This document shows, piece after piece, positions 26,650-37,350 of a stretch of DNA of 64,000 nt. Position numbers and translations under genes: made by a program. This stretch comes from Bacteroidota bacterium (GTDB lineage: Bacteria > Bacteroidota > Bacteroidia > JACCXN01), in assembly GCA_013696965.1 (NCBI GenBank), contig JACCXN010000055.1:1-64000 (forward strand), given 5' to 3'. Each line of letters opens with the position of its first letter. Within the stretch, counting starts at the first letter, position 1. The notes under the pieces are model-generated. The model saw only the letters and a program-made list of their open reading frames with translations, made no database searches and was not told the origin of the DNA.

Positions 26650-26695
26650 AAAAAAGGAAGGGGCTGCAAGTTATTTGCAGCCCCTTCCTTTTTTA
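26650..26695 (+). terminator. Strong terminator of ahcY
   Basis: A stem of about 20 bp (AAAAAAGGAAGGGGCTGCAA with its complement) around a 5-nt loop, ending in TTTTTT. Confidence 0.95.
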
Positions 26696-26969: not shown

Positions 26970-27404
26970 TTAATTAGATATAATAAGTTTTACCCCGTCA
27001 TAAGTGGTTTGGTATTGTTTTAAAGGGTATTGAGCTGGGCCTTGTTGAACTGAACCGTCAATAAGAAAAAATTGGGAAGAACAACTCCTGTCAACAGCAG
27101 AAAAACTATTTGCAGAATCAAGCATTACCACTGCCAATGGATTTTCAGAGTCATAAGTACAATGTCGATCATAGGCCATAAATTCATCTTGCGATTTCCT
27201 ATAAACTATAATTCCTCTTGATCCACCATTTAATTGTGTTGAGCCGCTTATTGCATTTAAATTAAAAAATTCAGGATCAGATACGTGCAGTGTAATGTTT
27301 ACTGGCACATAGGGCACTGGATGCTCTTCTCTTCTACAGGAACTCAAAACACAAATGCAAATCATGAAAATGGGCACAAAAACTCTGTATGTATTAGTTA
27401 TCAT
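26970..27404 (-). CDS. Lipoprotein with a degenerate Rieske-like fold
   Basis: A 144-residue predicted lipoprotein: signal peptide with lipobox LSSC (Cys 23). The rest has the layout of a Rieske domain, IIVYRKSQDEFMAYDRHCTY at about 65-84 and CSSQFFLIDGSVQQGPAQYP at 108-127, followed by PLKQY. Canonical Rieske centres need CxH and CxxH. Here only Cys 82 and Cys 108 stand at those places and the histidines are absent, so a [2Fe-2S] cluster is unlikely; a disulfide is possible. Role unknown. It is monocistronic. Confidence 0.6.
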   Translation of the reverse strand: MITNTYRVFVPIFMICICVLSSCRREEHPVPYVPVNITLHVSDPEFFNLNAISGSTQLNGGSRGIIVYRKSQDEFMAYDRHCTYDSENPLAVVMLDSANSFSAVDRSCSSQFFLIDGSVQQGPAQYPLKQYQTTYDGVKLIISN

Positions 27405-27456: not shown

Positions 27457-27762
27457 ATGAAGCGGTTTTTCAAATTCTTGTTCATGGTTGTGTTTATTTT
27501 CTTTACCACTGCTTGTTTTTCTTTTACACAAGGTCAATCAAAGCAGCCTTCAACAAAAAAGAAACACAGTGAGGCTGCAAAGGAAAAGAGAAGAAAAGAA
27601 AAAGAAGTAATTAAATATGAAAACGAATCAAGAAAAAAACACCTTGATATACAAACTAGACAAACCCGAAAAAGAATGAAAAGGAATATGAAAAACACAA
27701 CAGTAGCCAAAAACAACAAGAAAGAAATTTTTATAAAAAGATGGTTTTCCAGAAAGAATTAG
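27457..27762 (+). CDS. Small secreted very basic protein, unknown
   Basis: A 101-residue protein with a signal peptide (about 1-26, TTACFSFTQG at the end, where Cys 20 might also serve as a lipid anchor). The mature part is almost entirely Lys/Arg/Glu with a segment KKHLDIQTRQTRKRMKRNMK. I recognise the general type as a common Bacteroidota hypothetical, but not a function. It is divergent from the Rieske-like lipoprotein gene, with 52 nt between the two starts. Confidence 0.65.
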   Translation: MKRFFKFLFMVVFIFFTTACFSFTQGQSKQPSTKKKHSEAAKEKRRKEKEVIKYENESRKKHLDIQTRQTRKRMKRNMKNTTVAKNNKKEIFIKRWFSRKN

Positions 27763-27875: not shown

Positions 27876-28265
27876 ATGGAAAACATTGACGTAAAAACGA
27901 TAATTTATTTTGTAATTGCCATTGTTTGGTTTTTATACAGTACTTTTCGAAAGTCGCAGAATAAGGCCAAAAAACAAAGCGAGGCACTTCCTCCATTAAA
28001 AAACCAAGAAATTAGAGAGATTGTAAAAGAGGATTCATTTTCTGAAAGAAAATATCTTGAGGAAATTCAAAACGCTGAGATAATTAGTATAAGGAAACCA
28101 AAAATAAAAAAGAAAGTTGCTTCTGCAAAAACAAACCAAGACGATTATTTTTCTGATGCAAACAATCGGATCGAAGACGGTGATAAATCATCGGATGTAC
28201 TTGCAGGCCTTGATCCTAGGGACATGGTTATCTATTCTGAAATATTAAAAAGGCCCATTTACTGA
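27876..28265 (+). CDS. Single-TM protein with conserved-looking C-terminus, unknown
   Basis: A 129-residue protein with an N-terminal TM helix (about 8-24, IIYFVIAIVWFLYSTF), a charged and probably disordered middle, and a C-terminus DPRDMVIYSEILKRPIY of a kind I recall ending small membrane proteins in Bacteroidota (I..SEIL.RP.Y). The tail is probably cytoplasmic. It stands 157 bp upstream of the TonB receptor gene on the same strand. Function unknown. Confidence 0.65.
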   Translation: MENIDVKTIIYFVIAIVWFLYSTFRKSQNKAKKQSEALPPLKNQEIREIVKEDSFSERKYLEEIQNAEIISIRKPKIKKKVASAKTNQDDYFSDANNRIEDGDKSSDVLAGLDPRDMVIYSEILKRPIY

Positions 28266-28422: not shown

Positions 28423-31400
28423 ATGCTAAAACAAATACAACTGTTGTTTTTAATTACTCTTGCTTCGGTTACCATTGCAAAAGCACAGGTAGGCCAAGGT
28501 GGTTTAAAAGGTAAAGTTTTGGACAAGGTAAATAATGAGCCTGTTCCTTTTGCAAATGTTGTTGTGGAATTAAACGGCAATCAAATTGCAGGTGTTACTA
28601 CTGATATTGATGGTAATTTTTTCATTAAACCGCTTTCTCCCGGAAAGTATGATGTTAAAGCATCTTTTGTAGGTTATGAGAAAATTCAAATATCCGGAGT
28701 AGTAGTTTCTTCTGATCAAATTGCTTTCTTAAATATTAAAATGTCTCAGGGTATTGAACTTGCTACTTTTGAAAAAGTGGAGTATGAAGTTCCTTTGATA
28801 TCTAAAGATAAAACTTCTTCTGGAGGTACTGTTACCCGGGAGGAAATTGCCAAAATGCCGGGGCGTTCCGCGGAAATGGCCGCTCTTACTGTAGGTGGTA
28901 TTTATTCTGCTGACGGTGAAAGAGGTAGTGTAAGAGGAGCAAGAGAGGATGCAACGGATACTTATATTGATGGTGTTAAAGTTAGAGGTGCAGTTACAGT
29001 TCCTAACCAGGCTATTGAACAAGTTACTGTTATTATGGGAGGAGTACCTGCTCAATATGGTGATGCTACCGGAGGTATTATTAGTATTACAACCAGGGGC
29101 GCATCTTCCACTTATTTTGGAGGGGTGGAGCTTATTTCTTCTCAATTAACAGATGCATATGGTTATAATCTTATGGGTTATACCCTTTCCGGACCTTTAT
29201 TAATGAAAAATGATCCTCAGGATTCTACCAAGAAAAAACCTTTAGTTGGATTTTTCTTTTCTGGTGAATTGAAATCTGAAAAGGACCCTCGTCCTTCAGC
29301 CATTGGTTCTTGGAAAGTGAATGAAGATAAAATGCAATCACTCAGAGACAATCCTTCCAAACCTGTTGGGACCGGTTTCTTTCCTACCGGTGAGTTTGTA
29401 AGGACAAGTGATATGGAGCAAATTAAAGCAAGACAAAATGTTTCTACTAAAGGAGCTGTGGTTGCAGGCAAAATTGATATTAATACCAGTACAAACACCC
29501 ATCTTACACTGGGTGGTACAATGGACTATGGAACAAAGAGAACGGGTGTTTCTAATGATATTAATAGGAATGTTTTTGAAAATACTTTGTTTAACTCTGA
29601 CCATAATCCATTAATAACAGAAAATGTGTGGAGGGTTTATACAAATTTCACACATCGTTTTACTGGCGATGCCATGCAGGAAGAATCTGCTTCAGTAATT
29701 AAAAATGCATACTATTCTTTGCAGTTGGATTATTCCAAAAACAACAGAAGAATTGAGGACCCGATTCACAAAGACAAAATTTTCAACTATGGTCATATTG
29801 GAAAATTCAATTCTACATTTGTGAATTACTATACTCCTTTTCCTGTTTTTGAAGACTCTACTGGATTAACTGCATACGTGCATGAGAATTTTCAACAAAC
29901 TGCTTATGAATTTGAACCTGGCACCAGCAATCCTATTCTTGCTAATTATACACAGAATTACTATGATTTATATGAGGACCCTGCAGGGCATTATGAAAAT
30001 CCTCAACAAGTAATTGAAGGAGGAGGTTTGTTAAATGGACGTTATCCAATGAATAAATCTCGTGGTCATGTTTATGATATTTGGAACGCACCTGGAATGC
30101 CTTACAATGGATATTCAATTATGGACAATTCTCAGTTCAGAGTAAGAGCTACCGGATCTGCAGATATTAAAAACCACGCTATTCTTGTAGGTTTTGAATA
30201 CGAACAGCGCTCAGATAGATTTTTTAATGTTACAAACCCTTATCAATTGTGGCAAAGAGCCAGAGATCTTGCAAACCTGCACATACAACAACGTGATGTT
30301 GCTAACCCAGAAGTGGTTTACACGGAGGGGAATCCAATTCCAACCATCACTTATAAAAGGTTTAATAATTCTCCAGGAGAGTATGACAATTTTAATGGTG
30401 ACGAAACCCAGTCCTTTTTTGATTATAATTTAAGAGGAAAATTAAACCTGGATCAGGATGGCCTTGATTTTCTTGATGTGGATTCTTACGATCCAAGCCT
30501 TTATACGCTTGATATGTTTAGTGCAAATGAATTGTTGAATGAGGGTTATAATTTTGTTAGCTATGCCGGATATAACCACAAAGGAGAAAGACTTAAAGGG
30601 AAGCCAAGTTTTGATGGTTTCTTTAACGATAGAGATGAATTTGGAAATTTAAAACGTGAAATAGGTGCTTTTCAGCCAATTTACATTGCAGGGTATATTC
30701 AGGATAAATTTGCTTTTGAAGATCTTATTTTTAATGTTGGTCTTCGTGTTGACAGGTTTGATGCCAATCAGTTTGTTTTGAAAGATCCTTATTCTTTATT
30801 TGAAACAAGGAAAGCTGCTGAACTTCCTGCTGATTTACGCCCTTCCAATATTGGCGATAACTTCGTTGTTTATACCTCAGATGATGCGACTGCAGATATT
30901 TCTGAGCCAAATTCAATTTTAGGTTACAGAGATGGCGATAAATGGTATAACGCTAAAGGAATTGAATTGAATGACCCTAGTGTGCTTCTAACTTCTAAGG
31001 GCGTTACGGCTCCATGGTTGCTTAATCCTGATAAGAGAAATGCAAGTACTGATCTTACCAGTTCTGCATTTACAGATTATACTCCACAGGTAATAGTTAT
31101 GCCGCGTATCGCTTTTTCATTCCCTATTTCTGATGAAGCATTGTTTTTCGCACATTATGATGTACTTGCAAAAAGACCAGGAAGTGGCTTAAGATTAGAT
31201 CCTACGGATTATCTTTTTCTTCAAAGTGGTCCGAATTCAACTTTAAACAATCCAAATTTGAAACCTGAGAAAACAATTACCTATGAATTGGGTTTTCAAC
31301 AAAAGTTAACTTATAGCTCTTCTTTGAAGTTTTCTGCCTTCTACAATGAAATGAGAGACATGGTTCAGGTGATAAACGTGAATTATGCTTATCCAAGAAC

Positions 31401-32154
31401 CTATAGAACTTATGGTAATATGGATTTTGGAACAGTAAAAGGGATGACAATTGTTTATGATTTAAGAAGGACCGGAAATATTTCACTTAGAGCATCTTAT
31501 ACTTTGCAATTTGCTGATGGTACAGGCTCTAGTGCAACTACCGGTTTAAATATGATCAATGCTGGCCAGCCCAATTTAAGAACAGCATTTCCTTTGGAAT
31601 TTGACCAGCGCCACAATTTTACCGCAAGTCTTGATTTTAGATTTGGAAAAGGAAAAAATTACAATGGCCCGGTTTGGTTTGATAAGCAGGTTTTCTCAAA
31701 TACCGGTCTAAATGTTCTGGGAATGGCAGGCTCAGGTACTCCTTATTCCCAGCAGTCTAACATTAGCCCGGAAGCATTAGTGAATGGCGGTAGAAGTGTA
31801 ATGAAAGGAAGCATGAATGGATCAAGAAATCCAGGACAAATGCGCCTTAGTTTAAGATTAGACAAAGACATTGATTTGCAGTGGGGTAAAGAGGAAGAGA
31901 AAAAGAAAAAAGCTGCTTTAAATGTTTACCTATGGGTTCAAAATGTGTTAAATACCAAGAATGTTATTAATGTTTACAGAGCTACAGGGAATCCTGACGA
32001 TGATGGTTTTTTGAATGCTGCCGAATATCAGCAAGGCATCCAGCAGCAAAACGATGAAGCTGCTTACAGAGAATTATATGCTCTTAAAGTTAACAATCCA
32101 CGTAATTACAGTATGCCAAGAACAATAAGGTTAGGAGTAATCCTGAGCTTTTAA
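28423..32154 (+). CDS. TonB-dependent receptor with carboxypeptidase-like regulatory domain
   Basis: A 1243-residue outer-membrane protein. It has a signal peptide (1-21, ending AKA|Q), a CarboxypepD_reg-like domain (about 25-110: GKVLDKVNNEPVPFANVVVE, TDIDGNFFIKPLSPGKYDV), a plug domain (about 130-235: VRGAREDATDTYIDGVKVRG, GVPAQYGDATGGIISITT) and a long beta barrel. It takes up or exports an unknown large substrate with TonB energy. No SusD gene is adjacent; a 1331-residue exported protein and a PorV-like protein follow, which is unlike a classic SusCD locus. Confidence 0.9.
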   Translation: MLKQIQLLFLITLASVTIAKAQVGQGGLKGKVLDKVNNEPVPFANVVVELNGNQIAGVTTDIDGNFFIKPLSPGKYDVKASFVGYEKIQISGVVVSSDQIAFLNIKMSQGIELATFEKVEYEVPLISKDKTSSGGTVTREEIAKMPGRSAEMAALTVGGIYSADGERGSVRGAREDATDTYIDGVKVRGAVTVPNQAIEQVTVIMGGVPAQYGDATGGIISITTRGASSTYFGGVELISSQLTDAYGYNLMGYTLSGPLLMKNDPQDSTKKKPLVGFFFSGELKSEKDPRPSAIGSWKVNEDKMQSLRDNPSKPVGTGFFPTGEFVRTSDMEQIKARQNVSTKGAVVAGKIDINTSTNTHLTLGGTMDYGTKRTGVSNDINRNVFENTLFNSDHNPLITENVWRVYTNFTHRFTGDAMQEESASVIKNAYYSLQLDYSKNNRRIEDPIHKDKIFNYGHIGKFNSTFVNYYTPFPVFEDSTGLTAYVHENFQQTAYEFEPGTSNPILANYTQNYYDLYEDPAGHYENPQQVIEGGGLLNGRYPMNKSRGHVYDIWNAPGMPYNGYSIMDNSQFRVRATGSADIKNHAILVGFEYEQRSDRFFNVTNPYQLWQRARDLANLHIQQRDVANPEVVYTEGNPIPTITYKRFNNSPGEYDNFNGDETQSFFDYNLRGKLNLDQDGLDFLDVDSYDPSLYTLDMFSANELLNEGYNFVSYAGYNHKGERLKGKPSFDGFFNDRDEFGNLKREIGAFQPIYIAGYIQDKFAFEDLIFNVGLRVDRFDANQFVLKDPYSLFETRKAAELPADLRPSNIGDNFVVYTSDDATADISEPNSILGYRDGDKWYNAKGIELNDPSVLLTSKGVTAPWLLNPDKRNASTDLTSSAFTDYTPQVIVMPRIAFSFPISDEALFFAHYDVLAKRPGSGLRLDPTDYLFLQSGPNSTLNNPNLKPEKTITYELGFQQKLTYSSSLKFSAFYNEMRDMVQVINVNYAYPRTYRTYGNMDFGTVKGMTIVYDLRRTGNISLRASYTLQFADGTGSSATTGLNMINAGQPNLRTAFPLEFDQRHNFTASLDFRFGKGKNYNGPVWFDKQVFSNTGLNVLGMAGSGTPYSQQSNISPEALVNGGRSVMKGSMNGSRNPGQMRLSLRLDKDIDLQWGKEEEKKKKAALNVYLWVQNVLNTKNVINVYRATGNPDDDGFLNAAEYQQGIQQQNDEAAYRELYALKVNNPRNYSMPRTIRLGVILSF

Positions 32155-32177
32155 TAAATTTTTATAAAAAAATCTAT

Positions 32178-35100
32178 ATGAAAAAATTAAGCTTTTTATT
32201 CTTAAATATTTCTGTTTGCCTTGTTTTTGTTGCAAATACTACTTTCGCAAAAAATAGTACTAATAGTTCCAATGGAGGGCAAAACAATCCTGGTTCAAAC
32301 CAAAACACCCCTTCCTTGGCCGCTGGTTGCGCAGTTGCTAGTGCTTCCCGTGATCTTGATTTAAACAATGTTAGAGCTTTAATTCACACTGGTGGAGATA
32401 TGTGGTGGGATCTTGTTGGAAGTCCCAGATATGAAATTCCTAAAGGTTCAGGAAATCATTCTATGTTTTCAGGAGCACTCTGGATGGGTGGTGTGGATGT
32501 TAATGGACAATTAAAATTAGCTGCTCAAAGATTTCGTAATAAAGGAAATGATTATTGGCCTGGTCCTTTAAACAAAATAACCGTAGATATTGATGCTCCT
32601 ACTTGCTATGAATACGATAAGTTTTTTGTTACAACAAGAGCGGAGGTTGAGGAATTCAATGCCTGGTTTTTGGCTACTCAGGATAATCCTGCACAAGCTG
32701 CTTTAGATTTTCCCGGATACCTTATTCCTAAATCTATTTTGGATTGGCCTGCCCATGGTAATCCTGGCAATAATGAAGGATATTACCTTGCACCTTATTT
32801 TAAGAGAGATGGATCAACTGGGGCATACAACCCTTATGACGGTGACTATCCTGGATACGAGTTGGTTTCCGGAGGTGAATGTGGAACAACAAGAGATGTG
32901 AAACTTTACGGTGATAAAAACCTATGGTGGGTATTTAACGATAAAGGAAATGTACATACTGAAACAGGTGGTTCACCAATTGGTATGGAAGTGAGAGCGC
33001 AAGCCTTTGCCTTTTCTACAAACGATGAAATTAACAATATGACATTTTACAATTATGAACTTATTAACCGTTCAACCTTTTCACTTGAAAATACCTATTT
33101 TGGTGTATGGGCTGATGCAGATTTAGGTTTTTACGATGATGATTTTGTTGGTTGCGATGTTCAAAGAGGATTAGGTTATGCTTACAATGGCGCGGAAACT
33201 GATGGTACTGGTGCACCAGGACATTATAAAGGTACTCCTCCTGCTATAGGTATTGACTTTTTTGAAGGGCCTTATCAAGACAATGATGGGATAGATAACC
33301 CTTTGGTTTATGATTACAATCTTGCTAAAGCAGGTAATGGTATTCCCTATTCTGGTCTTGGTATTGGCTATGGTGATGGGATTATAGACAATGAACGTTT
33401 TGGGATGTCACGTTTCCTGTATCACAATAAAGGAGGTCAAGGTGCTAACGCTATTCAGGAACCAGAAACAGCTCCAGATTATTATAATTTCCTAAGAGGT
33501 ATATGGAAAGACAATACTAAAATGGTATATGGAGGAAACGGTCACGTTTCTGGTGGAGGAGTTGGTGAATGCAATTATATGTTTCCAGGAACTACTGATC
33601 CAATTGGATGGGGTACAAATGGAGCGCCACAACTAAACTGGACAGAAGAAACTGCTCTCAATGTTGCTGCTGATAGACGTTTTGCTCAATCAGCAGGACC
33701 CTTTGTTCTTAAACCGGGAGCTGTAAATAATATTACTGTTGGTGTGGTATGGGCTCAGGCACTTTCAGGTGGTCCTTTTGCATCTGTGGAAAAGTTAAAA
33801 ATTGTAGATGATAAAGCACAATCTTTATTTGATAATTGCTTTAGAATTCTTAATGGACCCGATGCTCCTGAATTAACTATTAAAGAATTAGATAAAGAGC
33901 TTATACTTTATTTAAGTAACCCAAGAGGGAATAATGTGAATGAATCGTATATTGAAAAAGACTATACAATTCCTTCCATAAATATTGAAACAGGACAAGC
34001 TTTTGACCAATTTTATAGATTCCAGGGATATCTTATTTACCAGGTAAAGGATGGAACTGTAACGGCAGATGAAATTGGGAATCCGGATAGAGCAAGATTA
34101 ACTGCACAGGTTGATATTAAAGATGGCGTTTCAAGGTTAATTAATTTTAAATTTGATGAAAATATTCTTGCAAATGTACCTGAAGATGTTATAATCAATG
34201 GTACGGATAAAGGAATTTACCATTCATTTAGAATTCTCGAAGATAAATTTGCTTTAAATGCTAAAAAACTTGTTAATCATAAGCCTTATTACTTTTTAGC
34301 AATTGCTTATGCTTACAATAATTTCAAACAGTATAATCCTCTTCAGCCGTCAGGATTAGATGGACAAACTAAAACCTATAAATTAAGCCGTAAGACTGCT
34401 AGTGGGAGTATTAAAGCTTTTAAAGCTGTTCCGCATAATTCATCACCCAGAGAAACTGGTATTTTAGTTAACAGTTCATATGGCGATCAGCCAATAATTA
34501 CTAGGATTGAAGGTCAAGGTAATGGAGGATTAAACATTGAATTTTCTGCTGAGAGCGAAGCCCAAATATTCTCTGCAGGTAAAATTGAATTTCCTGTTTA
34601 CAAAAAAGGATTTGGGCCTGTTGATATTAAAGTTGTAGATCCGTTAAATGTTCCTGATGCAACTTTTGAGATTAAATTAAATGTCCCGGGAACTTCTTCT
34701 ATTGACACTGCCAGCTGGATACTTACTAACACTTCAGCTTTTGAAGTGGATGGACAAAGCTATGCCGCTGGAGAATTTGTTGTAAATTCTGGAACCTCAA
34801 TTAAAGTAGCTTATGAGCAATTAATTCCGGCCATTGGCCTTTCTATTCGTATCGAACAGGCCGAAAATCCTGGAATTCCTACTTCACTTACCAATGGTTA
34901 CATTGGGGCTTCCATGGAATTTAATGATGAACAAAACAGATGGCTTACAGGTGTTTCTGATGCTGAGCAGTTCAGTCAAACCAATTGGATTCGTTCTGGT
35001 ACTTTTGATGATACAACAATGTTTAATTATCCATACAATAAAATATATTTTGATTATGGTGGAAAAGACGATAAAGAAATATATGAAAAAGTATTGAATG

Positions 35101-36173
35101 GAACTTGGGCTCCTTATGGTTTAACTTCTGTTTATGAACATGGTCCGGCTATACCTGTAACTGGGGGTAATACAGATTTAAGCAAGGTGAAAAGTGTTGA
35201 TGTTGTTATTACTGATGACAAAACCAAATGGACCAGATGTCCTGTTCTTGAAAATCAATTCAATCCGCTTTTATCCCTTGGTGGTGCTGTTAAAAATGGA
35301 TTAAGAAAATCACCTTCTGTTAATAAGGATGGAATTGCTGATGGAAGTGGCAATGGAATGGGATGGTTTCCAGGTTATGCTGTTTGTGTTGAAACTGGTG
35401 AACGTTTAAATATGGCTTTTAGTGAGGATACCTGGCTAGGTGATGCCAATGGTAGGGATATGTTATGGAACCCAACATCAGTTGTGTATACAAATACTGG
35501 CCAAATAAGAGGTGGAGGAAAGCATTTTATATATGTGTTTAATAAACGCGGAAATCTACCAAATCAAATGCCTGCTTACGATGAAGGAGAAAAATTGAAG
35601 GAATTTATTACTGCAGGTGGAACTGCTTTGCGTGAAGTATGGAACAATTGTATGTGGGTAGGTTATCCTTTGCTTGTAAAAGATAAGAAACTTTTAGGAA
35701 CAGAAGTTAAAATTAAACTTAGAGTTTCAAGAAAGTATGAGAAATATGAAACAAGCAGTGTTGCAAATGACAAAAATCCACTTTACTCTTTCGATCTTAA
35801 GGATCTTGCCACTGAAAAGGGAAGTTCAATCGCACTGGATTCTGCACTTTCACTTGTGAATGTTGTTCCGAATCCTTATTATGCATATTCAGGTTATGAA
35901 ACCAACCAATTGGACAACAGAATTAAGATTATTAACTTGCCTGTAGAAGCTTCTGTTACAATTTATACTGTAAATGGCACTTTAATTCGCAAATTTGCAA
36001 AAGCTGATAAGACAACCTCACTTGAATGGGATTTGAAAAACCATGCTGGCATACCTATTTCAGGTGGTGTTTATTTAATACATGTAAGTTCGAAAGACGA
36101 AACGGGTGTTTTAAGAGAAAGGGTATTAAAGTGGTTTGGAATTATGCGACCGGTTGATCTTGATTCATTTTAA
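32178..36173 (+). CDS. 1331-residue exported protein with a FlgD/T9SS-like C-terminal domain
   Basis: Signal peptide (about 1-24, ending TFA|K), then an Asn/Ser/Gly/Gln-rich linker (25-47). The large middle region has no domain I recognise but is rich in acidic loops and aromatic strands (ALWMGGVDVNGQLKLAAQRF, FGVWADADLGFYDDDFVGCD). The last 100 residues start at NVVPNPYYAY (about 1229) and contain SVTIYTVNGTLIRKF and GVYLIHVSS, a FlgD-like fold resembling type A T9SS sorting domains, followed by an atypical tail KWFGIMRPVDLDSF. It begins 23 nt after the TonB receptor gene. Probably a large surface or secreted protein; function unknown. Confidence 0.75.
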   Translation: MKKLSFLFLNISVCLVFVANTTFAKNSTNSSNGGQNNPGSNQNTPSLAAGCAVASASRDLDLNNVRALIHTGGDMWWDLVGSPRYEIPKGSGNHSMFSGALWMGGVDVNGQLKLAAQRFRNKGNDYWPGPLNKITVDIDAPTCYEYDKFFVTTRAEVEEFNAWFLATQDNPAQAALDFPGYLIPKSILDWPAHGNPGNNEGYYLAPYFKRDGSTGAYNPYDGDYPGYELVSGGECGTTRDVKLYGDKNLWWVFNDKGNVHTETGGSPIGMEVRAQAFAFSTNDEINNMTFYNYELINRSTFSLENTYFGVWADADLGFYDDDFVGCDVQRGLGYAYNGAETDGTGAPGHYKGTPPAIGIDFFEGPYQDNDGIDNPLVYDYNLAKAGNGIPYSGLGIGYGDGIIDNERFGMSRFLYHNKGGQGANAIQEPETAPDYYNFLRGIWKDNTKMVYGGNGHVSGGGVGECNYMFPGTTDPIGWGTNGAPQLNWTEETALNVAADRRFAQSAGPFVLKPGAVNNITVGVVWAQALSGGPFASVEKLKIVDDKAQSLFDNCFRILNGPDAPELTIKELDKELILYLSNPRGNNVNESYIEKDYTIPSINIETGQAFDQFYRFQGYLIYQVKDGTVTADEIGNPDRARLTAQVDIKDGVSRLINFKFDENILANVPEDVIINGTDKGIYHSFRILEDKFALNAKKLVNHKPYYFLAIAYAYNNFKQYNPLQPSGLDGQTKTYKLSRKTASGSIKAFKAVPHNSSPRETGILVNSSYGDQPIITRIEGQGNGGLNIEFSAESEAQIFSAGKIEFPVYKKGFGPVDIKVVDPLNVPDATFEIKLNVPGTSSIDTASWILTNTSAFEVDGQSYAAGEFVVNSGTSIKVAYEQLIPAIGLSIRIEQAENPGIPTSLTNGYIGASMEFNDEQNRWLTGVSDAEQFSQTNWIRSGTFDDTTMFNYPYNKIYFDYGGKDDKEIYEKVLNGTWAPYGLTSVYEHGPAIPVTGGNTDLSKVKSVDVVITDDKTKWTRCPVLENQFNPLLSLGGAVKNGLRKSPSVNKDGIADGSGNGMGWFPGYAVCVETGERLNMAFSEDTWLGDANGRDMLWNPTSVVYTNTGQIRGGGKHFIYVFNKRGNLPNQMPAYDEGEKLKEFITAGGTALREVWNNCMWVGYPLLVKDKKLLGTEVKIKLRVSRKYEKYETSSVANDKNPLYSFDLKDLATEKGSSIALDSALSLVNVVPNPYYAYSGYETNQLDNRIKIINLPVEASVTIYTVNGTLIRKFAKADKTTSLEWDLKNHAGIPISGGVYLIHVSSKDETGVLRERVLKWFGIMRPVDLDSF

Positions 36174-36209
36174 TAAAATTTATACATACGATACATATAA
36201 TTAATACTT

Positions 36210-37271
36210 ATGAATAGATATTTAAAATTCGCCTTTGCAGTAGTTGGTTCAGCAATTTTATGCTCAAATGGTATTGCGGGTAATAAGGATAGAGCAGGAC
36301 AAGCCGGTGGATCTGCACTATTAATAAACCCTTGGGCCAGGAGTACTGGATGGGGAGGCGCAAACACTGCCAGTGTATCTGGTATTGAAGCCATGAGCCT
36401 TAATGTTGCAGGAATTGCTTTTACAAAAAAAACAGAAATTGTTTTTGCACATACTAACTGGCTTAACATTTCAGGCTCAATTGATGACAACATTAACATT
36501 AACGCATTCGGTTTATCTCAGCGTGTTGGTGAAACCGGGGTAATTGGCCTTAGTGTATTATCCATGAATTTTGGAGATGTAATGGTTACCACTGTTGATT
36601 TGCCTGAAGGTGGATTGGGTAATTTTTCTCCTTCTTACTCTGTAATTGGTCTTTCCTACGCGAAGGAGTTTTCGAACAGTATATATGGAGGATTAACGCT
36701 TAAAATGGTTTCTGAGAAAATAGCAAATGCCGGTGCTACTGGAGTTGCTATTGATGCCGGTGTAAGATATGTTACAGGTGAAAATGATAAAATAAAATTT
36801 GGAATTGCACTAAGAAATGTTGGCCCACCAATGAAATTCAAAGGAGATGGTCTTTCTATTAGAGGTGTTATTCCTACTACAGGTGCTAGTCTTACCGTTG
36901 AACAAAGAACTTCTCCATATGAGTTACCCTCAATGATTAATATTGGTGCTTCTTATGATTTCAAGCTTCTAGAAGATCACAGATTAACTCTTGCAGGAAA
37001 TTTTGCCTCCAATTCGTTTACCAGAGATCAAATTTTGTTAGGACTTGAATATGGTTTCAAAAATTATTTCATGCTTAGAGGTGGATATGCTTACGAAGAA
37101 GGAATTACTAGTGTTAGTGACAGAGTAACAGCCTTTACTGGTCCTTCTGCAGGTGCTACTTTTGAACTTCCTTTAAATGATAAGGGAACCACCTTTGGTT
37201 TCGATTACTCTTACCGTGCTACAAATCCTTTTAACGGTGTTCATAGTTTAGGGGTGAGAATTAATTTATAG
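36210..37271 (+). CDS. PorV/PorQ-family outer-membrane protein
   Basis: A 353-residue barrel with a signal peptide (about 1-23), then AGQAGGSALLINPWARSTG and GWGGANTASVSGIEAMSLNVAG, the N-terminal signature of PorV/PorQ (DUF3308-type) proteins, and a FadL-like barrel to the C-terminal LGVRINL. PorV shuttles T9SS cargo to the sortase PorU at the cell surface; relatives next to a cargo gene may be dedicated exporters. It lies 36 nt after the 1331-residue protein gene, completing a three-gene unit closed by a terminator. Confidence 0.85.
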   Translation: MNRYLKFAFAVVGSAILCSNGIAGNKDRAGQAGGSALLINPWARSTGWGGANTASVSGIEAMSLNVAGIAFTKKTEIVFAHTNWLNISGSIDDNININAFGLSQRVGETGVIGLSVLSMNFGDVMVTTVDLPEGGLGNFSPSYSVIGLSYAKEFSNSIYGGLTLKMVSEKIANAGATGVAIDAGVRYVTGENDKIKFGIALRNVGPPMKFKGDGLSIRGVIPTTGASLTVEQRTSPYELPSMINIGASYDFKLLEDHRLTLAGNFASNSFTRDQILLGLEYGFKNYFMLRGGYAYEEGITSVSDRVTAFTGPSAGATFELPLNDKGTTFGFDYSYRATNPFNGVHSLGVRINL

Positions 37272-37304: not shown

Positions 37305-37321
37305 TTATAGTATTTATAAAG

Positions 37322-37350
37322 AGTCCCGACTTTGTCGGGATTCTTTTATT
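37322..37350 (+). terminator. Terminator after the PorV-like gene
   Basis: AGTCCCGAC, TTT loop and GTCGGGATT form a tight stem followed by CTTTTATTTTTT. Confidence 0.85.

Follow-up and report, generated by a model that had tools for sequence, protein, structure and literature searches.

In the current view of type IX secretion, all type A sorting domains use one shuttle, PorV, and private shuttles are a feature of type B (PMC12618676, PMC10202324). The published model has the sorting domain bind the loops of SprA-docked PorV, after which it is drawn out laterally (PMC10994853). Each type B substrate exits together with a cognate barrel of the SprF type, which is usually adjacent and doubles as its anchor (PMC12618676, PMC9143113). 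PorZ retains its sorting domain and remains on PorQ, and a 2023 review suggested that cognate PorV-like barrels may shield such sorting domains from cleavage (PMC10202324).

Here we describe a three-gene unit in a 64,000-nucleotide stretch of a Bacteroidota genome (the window) which combines features of these systems. Our preferred reading, to which we assign a probability of roughly 0.6, is that it encodes a self-contained outer-membrane complex, in which a giant protein secreted by the type IX system and held by a dedicated PorV-like shuttle/anchor serves a TonB-dependent receptor (TBDR) as an external capture protein or lid.

Layout of the unit and its proteins

The unit lies on the + strand and consists of the TBDR (28423-32154, 1243 aa), the giant exported protein (32178-36173, 1331 aa) and an outer-membrane barrel of the PorV/PorQ family (36210-37271, 353 aa). 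The gaps between them are 23 nt (32155-32177) and 36 nt (36174-36209), so the open reading frames, lengths and spacings given in the original prediction were exact. It had also placed one terminator after the three genes, and this is an intrinsic hairpin at 37318-37346 (+ strand), with a 13-pair stem followed by a T-rich tract, which closes the unit before greA and is the longest of seven terminator-like sites in the region. A conserved promoter ahead of the TBDR was rejected: the Bacteroidota motif TTG/TAnnTTTG is absent from this position in the window and occurs in 4 of 36 regions upstream of the TBDR (shuffled mean 0.5). Three small genes with no Pfam match sit between the S-adenosylhomocysteine hydrolase (SAHH) gene and the unit, at 26970-27404 (- strand), 27457-27762 (+) and 27876-28265 (+); the first, which looks like a small lipoprotein, is found at the same place in 15/40 relative loci. 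Readings of the unit as a defence system or a plasmid-borne element were rejected, as PADLOC and a plasmid search each gave no match.

The TBDR has a signal peptide, a CarboxypepD_reg-like N-terminal extension, a plug and a barrel. PF13620, PF13715 (CarboxypepD_reg), PF07715 (Plug) and PF00593 (barrel) all match above their cut-offs, the last two identifying it as a TonB-dependent receptor, and a homologue occupies the same position wherever the unit is conserved. No SusD domain was found in the unit or neighbouring genes, so this is not a SusCD importer, and the description of a TonB receptor without SusD stands. Two possible hints to a ligand came back empty: Rfam gave no riboswitch match at the gathering threshold, and the neighbouring genes are housekeeping only, with no catabolic genes among them. 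Sub-threshold Rfam matches near 26650, in intergenic sequence, look like chance and were discarded.

The giant begins with a signal peptide (residues about 1-25, judged by eye) of the cleavable type with no lipobox, followed by a variable linker (residues 26-50) and two large conserved regions (residues about 51-600 and 600-1220). No Pfam or NCBIfam domain was found before residue ~1220, in agreement with the earlier statement that the middle of the protein matches no recognised domain. AlphaFold2 gave a pLDDT of 92 for residues 45-640 (32310-34097, + strand; 81 sequences) and of 90 for residues 600-1331 (78 sequences), and the best TM of the first segment to solved structures was 0.30. As fold assignments for the main regions, dextran dextrinase and GH116 glucosidases (TM 0.2-0.3) and the starch-binding Sas6 (TM 0.1) were too weak to accept. 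A sequence search for solved relatives of the giant returned the PorZ sorting domain (E 0.92) alone. There are also short relatives of about 500-600 aa with the N-terminal region only, sometimes in tandem (e.g., G447 C34:70115-77907 and G448 C15:18416-23410).

Sorting signal and barrel lineage

The original prediction gave the giant a FlgD/T9SS-like C-terminal domain with an extra tail beyond it, and both are borne out. FlgD_ig, Por_Secre_tail and PorZ-CTD profiles match the C-terminus below threshold, with the best score against PorZ (31.6 bits). TIGR04183, with a cut-off of 23, gave 21.6 bits in one search and 26 in another, which puts the domain at about the type A threshold and means that canonical PorV could still carry the giant. 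Structure prediction is what confirms a sorting domain: AlphaFold2 models the last ~100 residues as seven strands, and Foldseek aligns these with PorZ and also with the sorting domain of RemZ in its translocon-trapped state. This PorZ/RemZ-like domain covers residues about 1225-1321 (35850-36140, + strand). With a signal peptide and a seven-stranded C-terminal sorting domain that contains the conserved lysine, the giant looks like a type IX substrate.

The tail, IMRPVDLDSF (residues 1322-1331; 36141-36170, + strand), was measured relative to the GxY motif. Canonical type A domains of this genome end 21-23 residues after GxY (n=28), whereas giants end a median of 31 residues after it (n=118; 34 in the window's giant), so the tail passes the canonical stop by about nine residues. 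Of 117 class sequences, 113 have Lys at -14, 115 have Arg at -8, 115 have Asp at -5, 109 have Leu at -4 and 92 have Phe/Tyr at -1. In 20 sequences from other classes, Lys at -14 (20), Leu/Ile at -4 (19) and Phe/Tyr at -1 (19) persist and the middle differs. This genome contains a single instance of the back-translated pattern RPxDL[DN]x[FY]-stop, and among 60 relatives the pattern is almost confined to giant genes (a reversed control gave 2 matches). The tail is modelled with low confidence as about ten residues after the last strand, unstructured alone. A conserved, structureless peptide of fixed length is what one would expect of a docking peptide.

The barrel, predicted to be of PorV/PorQ type, is a member of that family (NF033709, 155 bits, cut-off 90), as are the barrels of all 36 units (36/36). 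It falls well outside the named groups within the family, scoring 63.6 bits against a cut-off of 250 for the PorV equivalog NF033710, 66.4 against 220 for the PorQ equivalog NF033711 and 42 against 325 for the PorV2 equivalog. In a tree of 82 barrels, made with a quick method and with three long branches outside the unit clade, the unit barrels from this class and from other classes form one clade (support 100), separate from PorV (99, plus one relative from this genome) and from PorQ (99). The unit barrels therefore form a third lineage, and since their clade spans classes, the split seems older than the classes sampled. We found no Pfam or NCBIfam family that names the giant or sets this barrel lineage apart. 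Elsewhere in the genome, a further PorV-family barrel sits beside an 869-aa protein with a sorting-domain-like end (G000:C91:42000-52000) and another beside a 1476-aa protein (G000:C9:140000-150000); these are possible additional substrate-shuttle pairs.

It is conceivable, if unlikely, that the giant behaves like any other type A substrate: PorV would carry it, PorU would cleave it, and it would then be linked to lipopolysaccharide or released. The adjacent barrel would in that case be a FadL-like channel or second transporter that shares the operon. The giant's sorting domain resembles type A and has the invariant lysine, and the genome, which has SprA and about 149 type A sorting domains, encodes canonical PorV (downstream of a gene for a 1280-aa sorting-domain protein) and canonical PorQ in addition to the unit's barrel. 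A C-terminal extension is no obstacle either, as the system tolerates these, and the domains of PorZ and PorU, which stay uncleaved, are longer by one and three residues, respectively (PMC11285876). What speaks for a dedicated shuttle instead is that the giant is linked to a separate PorV lineage across classes and that its tail is conserved in both sequence and length and nearly private to giants.

Conservation across the phylum and the link to SprA

Of 60 class relatives, most of them the only genome of their family in the set, 52 have a relative of the giant, at 39-53% identity over the full aligned length. We compared 40 class-relative loci of about 17 kb (39-61% identity) and found the TBDR, giant and barrel genes in the same order and on the same strand in 36. 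Two of the other four are solitary extra copies of the giant (L039 and L040); in L055 a contig end truncates the barrel, and in L066 the genes are broken. In other classes the triplet keeps its order and strand in 18 of 20 loci, one exception being cut by a contig end (L178) and the other having a different downstream gene (L168). This conservation of gene order is far beyond chance, and the substrate and barrel genes, which lie side by side and are retained jointly, have the arrangement of a cognate pair. The original prediction had named gene order across Bacteroidota as the thing to check and rare co-occurrence as grounds for abandoning the idea; the genes co-occur across the phylum.

A scan of named genomes gave 80 loci, 52 of which have all three genes; the others include contig-end cuts and true solitary copies. 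Among cultured bacteria, Brumimicrobium oceani and Crocinitomix catalasitica ATCC 23190 have the complete triplet in this order, and many Flavobacteriales and Bacteroidales assemblies are also carriers. In an even draw across the phylum, 93/395 genomes had a match to the giant at E <= 1e-30, some of these being to the N-terminal region only. One locus from another class (L172, 3-12024) contains two head-to-tail TBDR-giant pairs with one barrel between them.

Conserved neighbours raise the question of whether the three genes adjoin through old synteny alone, with no common function. The 40 class-relative spans share the flanks seen in the window (greA in 34, HIT in 33, ruvC in 19 and SAHH in 11), which points to vertical inheritance, and such conservation of the whole neighbourhood could by itself suffice to keep the genes together. 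However, the SAHH, greA, HIT and ruvC flanks were not found in the compared spans from other classes, where the triplet persists in order and strand, so the neighbourhood does not account for its linkage. Together with the short gaps and single terminator, this leaves synteny alone a very improbable explanation.

The pairing of receptor, giant and barrel is not absolute, because solitary second giants exist at loci with no receptor or barrel (L039/L085, L040, L088, L103, L286, L287, L288 and L289). Genomes with such a copy frequently also have the full unit, and nearly all the copies retain the sorting domain and tail. Orphan substrates of type B share a single shuttle; by analogy, solitary giants may use the shuttle of the unit.

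SprA is present in 57 of the 60 relatives. All giant carriers have it (52/52) and none of the three SprA-less relatives has a giant (0/3), a co-occurrence with a hypergeometric value of about 0.0016. A structurally recognisable sorting domain in a protein found only alongside SprA speaks against a giant that stays in the periplasm and has no need of type IX secretion, the other outcome that would have told against the original prediction. Four complete SprA-positive relatives have no giant (G016, G023, G036 and G059), so the unit can be lost and is dispensable; absence from such genomes may also be why it has been overlooked.

Dispensability bears on a further alternative, namely that the unit is a structural or envelope-biogenesis assembly and not an importer. 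The giant would then be an adhesin, canopy or scaffold on the barrel, with the receptor acting as an anchor or energy input. The unit's vertical, housekeeping-like inheritance in very different habitats and a neighbourhood free of catabolic genes or ligand hints would fit such a role, and there is a precedent in the BAM complex of Bacteroidota, which has a FadL-type barrel, BamG, holding the large surface protein BamH (PMC12611786, PMC12578637). We nevertheless consider it improbable, given that the plug and barrel of the TBDR are intact and well conserved and that several complete SprA-positive genomes do without the unit. An uptake complex in which the giant serves the receptor remains our preferred reading.

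Proposed mechanism and comparison with known systems

In the preferred reading, the giant would be exported by Sec, and its C-terminal sorting domain would be what the type IX translocon (SprA) recognises. There the giant would be collected by the neighbouring PorV-like barrel instead of the general shuttle PorV, with the barrel reading both the sorting domain and the tail beyond it. The barrel would then hold the uncleaved sorting domain and so anchor the giant on the surface, the role reported for PorQ towards PorZ and for SprF towards SprB. Positioned over or beside the TBDR encoded upstream, the giant would act as an external capture protein or lid, doing the job of SusD as a secreted and not a lipidated protein.

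Co-variation between the parts was assessed by correlating pairwise distances. Every pair of unit parts remains correlated once the GreA+HIT background is removed. Partial correlations are 0.76 between the TBDR and the N-terminal region of the giant, 0.66 between the TBDR and the barrel and 0.40-0.49 between regions of the giant (N-terminal vs middle, 0.49), values that come from 30 loci with a short background and are less noisy for the longer parts. The first value is suggestive of contact between the TBDR and the giant's N-terminal region, as far as sequence distances can indicate this.

The original prediction, of a system for surface display or uptake that comes with a PorV-like shuttle of its own, is partly supported and, with phylum-wide co-occurrence, the sorting domain and SprA behind it, is the best-supported reading. 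The parts differ in strength: shuttling and display have good indirect support, and the giant probably serves the TBDR as a lid or capture protein. We infer that the barrel is this giant's shuttle, that the giant is retained on the surface, that it contacts the receptor and that the two share a role in uptake. Where a TonB receptor lacks SusD and has some other extracellular protein tied to it, ligand capture or gating would be the most economical role for that protein. A bolder version, which we hold tentatively and at somewhat less than even odds, is that this is an uptake machine predating the split between classes: the type IX system would build the extracellular half of a TBDR, with the giant replacing SusD, and a private PorV lineage would read the tail-extended signal, making a second shuttle code among type A-like signals.

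If true, the one-shuttle rule would be broken by a type A-like substrate that occurs across the phylum, has an extended tail and uses a PorV lineage of its own. Such a substrate would serve as a natural experiment on the way shuttles read sorting signals and on what decides whether the domain is cleaved, and one operon would join protein secretion with TonB-dependent uptake. In open-access full texts, we found no descriptions of PorV with TonB receptors or of PorV-like proteins that resemble this unit.

Among described systems, PorZ-PorQ is like the unit in that a secreted protein with an uncleaved sorting domain sits on a PorV-family barrel, as proposed for the giant. However, the giant's passenger is unrelated to PorZ, the unit's barrel is outside the PorQ clade (with PorQ separate in the same genome), and the unit adds a tail and an adjacent TonB receptor. 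With the type B pairs SprB-SprF and PG1035-PorP it shares the order of substrate gene then barrel gene, the pairing of one substrate with one shuttle and solitary substrate copies that could share a shuttle (PMC12618676, PMC9143113), but its barrel is of the PorV/PorQ family and not PorP/SprF, its sorting domain is type A-like and it includes a TonB receptor. Type A substrates of PorV (RemA, gingipains) have the same seven-stranded sorting domain and invariant lysine near the end, whereas the giant's domain is divergent, has nine extra conserved terminal residues and is paired with a private barrel.

SusCD resembles the unit in joining a TBDR that has an N-terminal CarboxypepD_reg extension to a large extracellular protein, but here there is no SusD and the receptor's partner looks like a type IX substrate, whose signal peptide is of the cleavable type and lacks a lipobox. 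In BamG-BamH, compared through the published descriptions and not by sequence, a FadL/PorV-type barrel likewise holds a large extracellular protein, but BamH is a lipoprotein held via its N-terminal region and has no sorting domain (PMC12611786, PMC12578637). What is new in this unit is a proposed type IX substrate-shuttle pair in which the barrel belongs to a new lineage, the sorting signal has an extended tail and a TonB receptor is built in.
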